From assembly GCA_014634225.1 (NCBI GenBank), contig BLFN01000295.1, forward strand, positions 248,238 to 260,737: a stretch of DNA of 12,500 nt, read 5' to 3'. Under the pieces are notes generated by a model. It saw nothing but the letters and a program-made list of their open reading frames with translations. It was not told the origin of the DNA and ran no database searches. This DNA is from Acropora yongei. Taxonomy: Eukaryota; Cnidaria; Anthozoa; Scleractinia; Acroporidae. Of this stretch, positions 1,333 to 12,500 are shown piece after piece (within the stretch, counting starts at the first letter, position 1; the number at the start of each line of letters is the position of its first letter). The position numbers and the translations under genes were made by a program.

Positions 1333-4300
1333 ATGCACAATTGTATTAAGCCTCACTTTTCACGTTTTCCTGGTCATTCAAAAGGTGTGGCCCAATCAAC
1401 TAACGGACCTAACAGAAGCCTACATACAGCAGTGGCCTCTCCAGCCTGCGTAACAACACCATCCTTTCACACCATTTCAAAAAGTGCATCATGGATCCAA
1501 TGGGCACATGAAACAATTTGGCCGTCCTCCTCAATGACATCGTCCGATAGTAAGGCGTTTGCTGTTAGCGTAAGTATTTCTCCCTCCTCAGTTGTCTTAA
1601 AAGAAGCGTCTTTCTCATGGAGTTCAAGAGCTTCGATATCAACAAGCGTCCTGGCAAACCATTCGGCATATGTGAAACCACGAATTTCGAGTTCGATGAC
1701 TCTAAGCAAAATGGACAAAATCTCAAAGAACTCGCAGTCAACTGCGGCGTTCTATCTCAGCCTTACTGTTTCGGAATCAAGACATATACCGAAAAGTGTG
1801 TCGTCCATTTCACTCTCAGCAAGTGCTATCCGTGATTTACAGACTACTGTCCGTCCCAGTGCTTCACTTTCATTAAGCAACAGTCAAGTTGGGTCAGTGT
1901 ATCCAAGCCTTGCACAATCTTTAATCTCGATTGTGGCGTCCACTACAACTACAGGCTTGAGTCAATCTGACTCTGTCAACTCAAGTATGTCCTACTCGTC
2001 AAGCACATCGCACAGCCAGTCACCATCGAATAGCACAAGCCCCTCCGCGTTGGAAAGCCTTTCTCAAAGTGAGTCTGTGTTCGACAACCAAACGCCGTCC
2101 TCTATAGTTACCTCGTCTCAAAGTGAGACCTTTGCTGCCAGCCTAAGTGTTTCTTTCTTCACAGCTGTTTCCAAAAGTGCGTCTGCCTCTTGGAGTTCGA
2201 GTGCATCGATATCAACAAGCCTCTTAGAAACTAATTCGTTATCTCTTAGTGTTTCACTTTCGTCGAGAAGTGTTCAAGGTGCACTGTCGTCAAGTAGCAG
2301 GTCTCAGAGCCATTCCCAATCTGTAATTTTGAGCGTGCCCTCTTCAGAAAGTATGCTTCCAAGTAATTTGTACTCTGTCAGCCGGGAAATGTCATCCTCG
2401 GAGTTTTTTCAAAGCCACTCACTCTCGACAACGGGATCTTTGTCTTCATCGAGAGTGCCCAATTTGAGTGCTACATTGACTGTTAGCCAGAGGGATGTAT
2501 CCTCAAACAGCTTGCGGTCTAGTGCCACGTTCTTTGTCAGCCTAAGTGTCTCGGCGTCGACAGACATCTCGGAAAGTGTGTCATCCACTTTGAGCCCAAG
2601 CTTTTCGTTCTCACCAAGTGTCCTCGAAACTGCTTCAGAAACTGTCCGTCCCAGTGCTTCACTTTCATTAAGCAACAGTCAAGTTTGGTCAGTGTATCCA
2701 AGCCTTGCACAATCATTAATCTCGATTGTGGCGTCCCTTAAAACTACAGGCTTGAGTCAATCTGACTCTGTCGGCTCAAGTATGTCCTACTCGCCAAGCG
2801 CATCACGCAGCGCGTCAGCATCGATTAGCACAAGCTCCTTCGCGTTGGAAAGCCCCTCTAAAAGTGAGTCCGTGTTCGACAGCCAAACAGCGTCCTCTAC
2901 AGTCACCTCGTCTCAAAGTGAGGCATTTGCTGCCAGCCTAAGTGTTTCTTTCGCCACAGCTGTTTCTAAAAGTGTGTCTGCATCTTGGAGTTTGAGTGCA
3001 TCGATATCAACAAGCGTCTCAGAGAGTGATTCGTTATCTGCTAGCCCAAGTGTTTCACGACTGTCGGGAAATGTTCAAGGTGCATTGTTGACAAGTAGCA
3101 AGTCTCAGAGCCAATCCCAATCTTTAACTTTGAGCGTACCCTTGTCAGAAAGTATGCTTCAAAGTAATTTGTACTCTGTCAGCCAGGAAATGTCAGCCTT
3201 GGAGTTTTTGGAAAGCCAGTCACTCTGGACAACAGGATCTTTGTCGTCATCGATAGACCCGGATTTGAGTGCTGCATTGACAGTTAGCCAAATGGATGTA
3301 TACTCAAACAGCTTGCGATCCTTTGCCACATTCTTTGTCAGCCTAAGTGTCTCGGCGTCGACAGACATCTCGAAAAGTGTGGCATCCACTTCGAGCCCAA
3401 GCTTTTCGTACTCACCAAGTGTTCTCGAAACTCCTTCAGAGACTGTCCGTCCAAGAGCTTCACTTTCATTAAGCAACAGTCAAGTTGGTTCAGTGTATCC
3501 AAGCCTTGCAGAATCTCTAGTCTCGATTGTGGCGTCCACTAAAACTACAGGTTTGAGTCAATCTGACTCTGTCAGCTCAAGTATGTCCTACTCGTTAAGC
3601 ACATCACACAGCCAGTCAGCATCGATTAGCACAAGCTCCTCCGCGTTGGAAAGCCCTTCCAAAAATGAGTCTGAGTTCTACAGCCAGACGTCGTTCTCTA
3701 GAGTCACCTCGTCTCAAAATGAGGCATTTGCTACAAGCCTAAGTGTTTTTTTCTCCACAGCTGTTTTCAAAAGTGTGTCTGCATCTTGGACTTCGAGTGC
3801 ATCGATATCAACAAGCGTGTCAGAAAGTGATTCGTTATCTGTTAGCCCAAGTGCTACACGTTCGTCGAGAAGTGTTCAAAGTGCATTGTTGACAAGTGGC
3901 AGGTCTAAGAGCCAGTCCCAATCTGTAACTTTGAGCGTGCCATCTTCAGAAAGTATGCTTCCAAGTATTTTGTACTCTGTCAGCCAGGAAATGTCATCCT
4001 TGGAGTTTTTGGAAACCCAGTCACTCTGGACAACAGGATCTTTGTCGTCATCGATAGACCCGGATTTGAGTGCTGCTGTCTCAGAGAGTGCTTCGTTATC
4101 TTTTAGCCCAAGTGTTTCACGATCGTCGTTAAGTGTTCAAAGTGCATTGTTGACAAGTAGCAGGTCTCAGAGCCAATCCCAATCTGTAACTTTGAGCGTG
4201 TCCTCGTCAGAAGGTATGCTTCCAAGTAATTTGTACTCTGTCAGCCAAGAAATGTCATCATTGGAGTTTTTGGAAAGCCAGTCACTCTGGACAACAGGAT

Positions 4301-12500: not shown

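Follow-up and report, generated by a model that had tools for sequence, protein, structure and literature searches.

A stop-free array of 267-residue serine-rich repeats in Acropora yongei, probably the mucin domain of a MUC4-like transmembrane protein

It is through mucus and surface mucins that a coral first meets microbes, sediment and symbionts, and repeat arrays of the kind described here are hard to assemble. As set out in one account of the group, the hallmark of a mucin is a content of more than 40% serine plus threonine together with around 5% proline (PMC9080433). For the human membrane mucins MUC3A and MUC3B, PMC9578598 describes giant ‘PTS’ exons of 15,873 bp and 39,267 bp, the length of which changes by recombination; for MUC4, self-cleavage at a GDPH site within the VWD domain is proposed in PMC8660890, yielding a repeat-bearing alpha subunit and a membrane-bound beta subunit. 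Within Acropora itself, a skeletal mucin4-like protein of A. digitifera is reported as carrying N-terminal TSP1 domains alongside a NIDO-AMOP-VWD-EGF arrangement (PMC4890752). Further afield, the serine-rich repeat proteins of bacteria (SRRPs) are described as having serine in alternation with alanine, valine, threonine and others such as glutamate, methionine and leucine, arranged in repeats of 10–20 residues, with an AST region and an LPXTG anchor (PMC6973325).

Here, we analyse a stretch of 12,500 nucleotides from Acropora yongei (GCA_014634225.1, contig BLFN01000295.1, positions 248,238 to 260,737 of the forward strand), referred to throughout as ‘the window’. Most of it is taken up by a serine-rich repeat array, which we read, with a probability of roughly 0.78, as the serine-rich mucin domain of an acroporid MUC4-like transmembrane mucin, carried on one giant exon.

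The open frame and the map of the array

We find that the frame of the array is free of stops from 1333 to 12498, where it runs off the end of the window (Table 1); the initial annotation had proposed a single open frame of at least 3,722 codons, and this is borne out in full. Over the whole window the same frame contains 24 stops, all of them upstream of 1333, and each of the five other frames between 121 and 367. The motif SVYP provides a convenient anchor for the individual units, occurring at 1894, 2689, 3490, 4552, 5353, 6154, 6955, 7753, 8554, 9355, 10156, 10957 and 11758; the spacings between these 13 positions are, in order, 795, 801, 1062, 801, 801, 801 and 798, followed by 801 five times, all multiples of three, just as had been claimed. 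The one outlying value, 1062, arises from 801 plus a tandem duplication of 261 bases inside the unit (2.0 copies, 91% match). A unit profile built from the 12 close units, U1–U12, recovers these together with an older copy, U0, at residues 172–433 of the frame, and gives weak matches of 15 and 19 bits within residues 28–160. The frame, described initially as ‘almost wholly’ made of 267-residue repeats, is not filled by them throughout: residues 1–171 are at most weakly repeat-like.

Table 1. Coordinates of features in the window, counted from its first base
Feature	Position	Strand	Remarks
Upstream sequence, AT-rich, without repeat	1-1332	+	~37-38% GC (array: 45-50%); each of the three + frames has stops
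Serine-rich repeat domain, open frame	1333-12498	+	3,722 codons, off the window end
N-terminal cap	1372-1845	+	Similarity to A. millepora P0002; weakly repeat-like
U0, older full-length copy, 263 aa	1846-2634	+	Profile 367 bits, tree
U1, 267 aa	2635-3435	+	
U2, 354 aa, holds the 261-base tandem duplication at 3820-4337	3436-4497	+	
U3, 96% aa identical to U10	4498-5298	+	
U4, copy used for the structure model	5299-6099	+	
U5 + U6, first copy of two-unit block	6100-7701	+	
U7 (one codon shorter) + U8, second copy of two-unit block	7702-9300	+	
U9, U10, U11	9301-11703	+	U9/U11 93% aa
U12, window ends two residues short of unit end	11704-12498	+	

Several units are nearly identical to one another. 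U5 and U7 agree in 792 of 804 aligned DNA columns and U6 and U8 in 793 of 801 bases, equivalent to 98% and 99% identity in protein (the U3/U10 and U9/U11 values are given in Table 1); this points to a recent duplication of a two-unit block. Further exchanges probably spanned several units, and unequal exchange between near-identical units would shift the length of the array. Beneath the level of the unit there is a sub-period of 54 bases (18 residues), apparent as identities of 0.40, 0.36 and 0.34 at lags of 54, 108 and 162, where the mean for lags 3–399 is 0.25, from which we infer that the 267-residue unit probably descends from an 18-residue ancestor.

This sub-period is real, and could be taken to favour a non-coding satellite, free of stops simply because its 54-base sub-unit is free of them. 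We consider such a satellite extremely improbable, since annotated genes of A. palmata and, at a greater distance, of A. millepora encode this protein sequence (see below), and since dN is lower than dS in 63 of the 66 unit pairs; both a satellite and a chance frame are ruled out by these homologues and by the stop test described next, unless the gene models are wrong too.

Averaged over the 66 pairs, dN is 0.093 and dS 0.138 (a ratio of 0.68), and the first, second and third codon positions have 73, 77 and 87 variable base columns, each of 267; amino-acid constraint on the units is thus weak. The stop-free frame is stronger evidence for coding: the 12 close units hold at least 254 distinct base variants, and with 4.0% of random changes creating a stop, some 10.2 stops would be expected where 0 are observed (P ~3e-5). 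This count supersedes a version of the test run on a star phylogeny (22.4 stops expected, and never fewer than 6 over 1,000 runs), in which shared changes were overcounted. The initial view that the array is coding and not a decaying satellite agrees with all of this—the lack of stops, length changes that keep the frame, the dN/dS value and the finding of the unit in coral proteins already annotated.

A gene fragment or pseudogene, held in frame through recent duplication and unexpressed, would be compatible with a dN/dS that is not low, with near-identical blocks that speak of recent duplication, and with the lack of a signal-peptide match upstream (bases 1–1500). That no stop appears amongst the distinct variants, that the length changes from unit to unit are all in frame, and that the homologous units of A. 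palmata (77% identical) are also in frame make this reading, in our judgement, very unlikely.

In 116 of the 117 unit columns that hold serine, every serine codon belongs to the same class, AGY or TCN, as a consequence of the common descent of the units. On the opposite strand, eleven ORFs of 105–144 aa are found between 3159 and 12500. Most units have such a frame in a similar position, and these ORFs seem to be a side effect of the repeat and of its serine codon pattern. A phage origin was considered and rejected, bases 1333–4000 giving no DNA match in the phage collection; U3, the sole query used against viral contigs, drew 18 pattern matches, none of them a relative. No tRNA was found within the window.

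Relatives of the unit and the start of the gene

Residues 150–750 of the frame, searched against 5.77 billion proteins (2,435 candidates scored, E<=1e-3), give two matches, both from Acropora and both with NIDO, VWD and EGF domains. The first, P0001, is isoform X2 of A. palmata LOC141877470 (2,441 aa, ‘uncharacterized protein’; 77% identity, 95% coverage); the second, P0002, is isoform X3 of A. millepora LOC114975818 (3,153 aa; 51% identity, 64% coverage). A second search with residues 1–1389 (7,984 scored) adds P0003, isoform X4 of the A. palmata locus (50% identity, 30% coverage), and a weak match, P0004. Scoring in these searches, as in that for homologues of P0001 described below, was confined to candidates with shared short words and a limited length, and shorter or more diverged relatives may be missed.

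P0001 has units at 5–271, 272–538 and 539–805, with a partial one at 807–933, and as it begins inside a unit, its N-terminus is probably incomplete. In this gene model the unit is joined to a NIDO domain (991–1210, E 2.7e-21), a VWD domain (1370–1534, with GDPH at 1372), a C8-3_MUC4 domain (1588–1630), eight EGF_CA stretches and a transmembrane part (hydrophobic helix at 2376). Its units are 73–81% identical to those of the window (mean 77% over 36 comparisons, U2 left out), and the two proteins have in common the 267-residue unit (set before NIDO in P0001), a similar serine content (37% in P0001), and serine alternation; they differ in number, with 3.5 units in P0001 against at least 13 in the window. 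Both P0002 and P0003 have a serine-rich N-terminal region with parts of the unit, and P0002 also has a matching N-terminal cap and a signal-peptide-like start. Where P0002 departs from the pattern is in having two NIDO, VWD and C8-3 stretches, which by Pfam suggests that the MUC4-like ectodomain has been duplicated in tandem within a single chain; two GDPH sites are found in P0002 and likewise in P0005 from A. muricata.

MUC4 has an AMOP domain, as do the coral mucin4-like proteins described so far in print. No match to AMOP was found at E<=10 in P0001 or in Oculina P0006 (the HMMER filters may hide very weak ones), and we therefore call the protein MUC4-like and not MUC4. TSP1, searched for in P0001 and P0002, gave no match at E<=0.01 in either; the window gene is therefore probably not the A. 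digitifera skeletal mucin4-like gene.

Residues 950–1760 of P0001 have 179 homologues at E<=1e-3. The 120 of these that were examined come, among others, from corals, anemones, lancelets, placozoans, echinoderms, annelids and molluscs, and a large number bear mucin-like names. When 121 proteins are scanned with the unit profile (E<=1e-3), P0001, P0002 and P0003 match and the others do not, whilst GDPH is present in 114 of the 121, including P0001, P0002 (twice) and P0003. Taken together, the spread of homologues and the profile result indicate that the C-terminal half belongs to an old animal family and that, in the proteins seen, the unit is restricted to Acropora. The suggestion that the array might represent an ‘undescribed protein family’ consequently needs to be narrowed: the family is MUC4-like, with the unit present in annotated Acropora proteins as an N-terminal repeat domain, and it is the repeat itself that may be undescribed. 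A mucin-like protein of A. muricata (P0013, isoform X3), 39% identical to P0001 over 950–1760, has different short Ser/Thr/Pro repeats of the TGVNPPTSSPSTSS type. A search of solved structures with P0001 returned 35 sequences, the best stretches all lying within 1770–2193 (the EGF part) and none on the repeat.

At the 5' end, similarity to P0002 begins at base 1372 (GHSKGVAQSTNG / GHAKNVAQSING; score 59), the start of the cap reading GHSKGVAQS in the window and GHAKNVAQS in P0002. The N-terminus of P0002 itself, MRVLEIGFLCLVQVVLK, looks by eye like a signal peptide (best 19-residue hydropathy 1.3, near the start); no counterpart of it was found in bases 1–1500 of the window (query scores 18–21; shuffled mean 23.4). 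The ATG at 1333 comes directly after a stop, no hydrophobic signal stretch is seen behind it, and the A. millepora similarity starts only at 1372; for the last two reasons, this ATG is probably not the true start. The frame-open sequence before 1400 contains AG at two places only, 1349–1350 and 1383–1384, the latter, which follows a pyrimidine-rich stretch, being a candidate splice acceptor. We infer an intron ending near 1372–1384, with a signal exon farther upstream; bases 1–1332 are probably intron, and perhaps also 5' flank.

Alternating serine and two serine-rich cassettes

In the frame as a whole, serine makes up 36.7% of residues (a little below the figure of ~40% given initially), followed by leucine (9.2%), valine (8.0%), threonine (7.9%), alanine (6.2%), proline (3.5%), glycine (1.9%) and cysteine (0.1%); aspartate plus glutamate amount to 6.6%. 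Serine tends to fall on every second residue: its autocorrelation at lags 1–4 is -0.31, +0.28, -0.32 and +0.29, and is negative at all odd and positive at all even lags from 1 to 24. The lag-2 value has a z of 17.9 against 200 shuffles, and the longest strict Ser-x run spans 33 residues (base 5629), compared with a maximum of 17 in 500 shuffles. Within the unit, serine is commoner at odd positions in the ten 20-residue blocks up to residue 200, the margin being very small in the three at 21, 81 and 181; over the next four blocks it is commoner at even positions.

We measured alternation in 15 segments, chosen as serine-dominated from the 39 proteins with a Ser/Thr-rich stretch. The lag-2 value is 0.26 in A. 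palmata P0001, 0.21 in A. millepora P0002 and 0.29 in Porites P0016, low in P0011 of Stylophora (0.08) and in P0050 (0.09), and negative in Trichoplax P0069 (-0.26) and sea urchin P0101 (-0.23); alternation is therefore no family-wide rule of serine-rich regions. Of the proteins found by searching, P0004, a metagenome protein of 1,025 aa with LamG, has two serine-rich stretches, the first with a lag-2 autocorrelation of 0.99; we take its match (E 1.1e-4, 6% coverage) as compositional likeness.

An alternation in register, with the sign still changing at lag 24, and a strict run well beyond the shuffled maximum are what might be expected of a structural, silk-like or adhesive polymer, in which serine and other residues by turns would form extended amphipathic strands packed into fibres with little glycosylation. 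Such a polymer seems unlikely to us, as the A. palmata unit is joined to a MUC4-like, membrane-anchored half, glycine is scarce, and no strand is predicted, this last point being weak evidence from a low-confidence model. The AlphaFold model in question, of U4 (with 11 unit sequences; U0 and U2 left out of the alignment), has a mean pLDDT of 27.3, with 267/267 residues below 50; the unit is thus predicted to be without structure, although low pLDDT may also stem from a shallow alignment. The initial annotation recognised no domain, and for the repeat we concur, the sole Pfam match (E 0.22) reaching 11.9 bits against a cut-off of 22.8.

S-x-E is a secretory-kinase motif, and in the frame it is depleted, with 37 sites against 57.4 +/- 5.7 in shuffles; N-glycosylation sequons are depleted also (11 against 21.5 +/- 3.3). 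The first of these figures, along with the small share of acidic residues and the absence from P0001 and P0002 of TSP1 matches as in the skeletal mucin4-like protein, counts against a skeletal organic matrix protein whose serine-rich array is phosphorylated and plays a role in calcification, a reading we hold to be quite improbable even though mucin-like and mucin4-like proteins are listed from Acropora skeleton (PMC4890752, PMC4043741).

The A. palmata locus has a further feature of note. Isoforms X2 and X4, both of them database gene models, are 99% identical over X2 residues 950–1760, slightly different in the initial residues ahead of NIDO and reaching into it, and have different serine regions; that of X4 is 97% identical to its A. 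millepora counterpart (469 columns). In a midpoint-rooted tree of 17 rows, from which U2 was left out for its internal duplication, the pieces from A. millepora and X4 cluster (100/100) apart from all window and X2 units. The three A. palmata X2 units group together at 88/94 and window units U1 and U3–U12 at 93/94, with U0 beside these two groups in a branching order that is not settled. The separate window and A. palmata groups suggest that homogenisation or expansion of the array took place within each lineage on its own; the evidence is moderate, the supports being below 95 and the root a midpoint.

A proposed glycan brush and its known counterparts

On the reading of the array as a mucin domain, a signal peptide on an upstream exon would export the protein, and the repeats would form a disordered, extended chain; dense O-glycosylation of serine and threonine, often at every second residue, would make of this chain a long extracellular brush. 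The NIDO, VWD, C8-3, EGF and transmembrane parts would act as its C-terminal anchor, the GDPH site in VWD permitting cleavage and shedding of the brush, as proposed for human MUC4. The window ends inside the repeats and the NIDO-to-tail half lies outside it; the same C-terminus as in A. palmata would be expected to the right. A glycosylated mucin extends by ~0.25 nm per residue, at which value the visible array would, if glycosylated, span ~0.9 micrometre.

A broader proposal, possible but on balance doubtful, is that acroporids have a MUC4-like gene with exchangeable giant serine cassettes. One of these would be near-invariant, with 97% identity of A. palmata to A. millepora, and the other an array of 267-residue units with alternating serine that expands fast. 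The splice form chosen and the length of the array might then determine a cleavable glycan brush, roughly a micrometre long, that differs from species to species and perhaps from colony to colony; its pattern would make it a counterpart among eukaryotes of the bacterial serine-rich repeat adhesins.

The accessible parts of the open literature on coral and Acropora mucins contain no paper that we could find on this 267-residue repeat, and the locus names LOC141877470 and LOC114975818 likewise led to no paper there; a mucin-5AC-like gene, under another locus name, is reported to differ between A. palmata and A. cervicornis (PMC6505131). The kind of protein is known, and the 267-residue repeat is apparently undescribed. 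What appears to be new is serine at every second residue in long runs, the 18-residue sub-period, the recent multi-unit duplications, and the pair of different serine cassettes that isoform models of a single A. palmata locus carry. As a defined unit, the repeat could serve in Acropora to measure variation in length, the use of transcripts and glycosylation; the array is also an example of a mucin-like domain built on alternating serine.

Set against the described systems, the array has the Ser/Thr-rich repeat domain of a mucin, with serine plus threonine at 44.6% and 13 units, its proline content being a little low. The human membrane mucins have their repeats on one giant exon; the frame of the array is unbroken over 11.2 kb. 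Human MUC4 and the coral mucin4-like proteins share with P0001 the NIDO domain, VWD with GDPH, C8-3_MUC4, EGF domains, a transmembrane helix and Ser/Thr-rich repeats on the N-terminal side; the differences lie in AMOP, undetected in P0001, and in a 267-residue unit with far more serine than threonine and little proline. From the coral skeletal mucin4-like SOMP the relatives tested differ in that neither TSP1 nor AMOP is amongst the P0001 and P0002 matches at E<=0.01. The bacterial SRRPs, finally, are alike in pattern only, through their alternating serine (+0.28 at lag 2 in the window), the unit here being 267 residues long with an 18-residue sub-period and its relatives being coral proteins.
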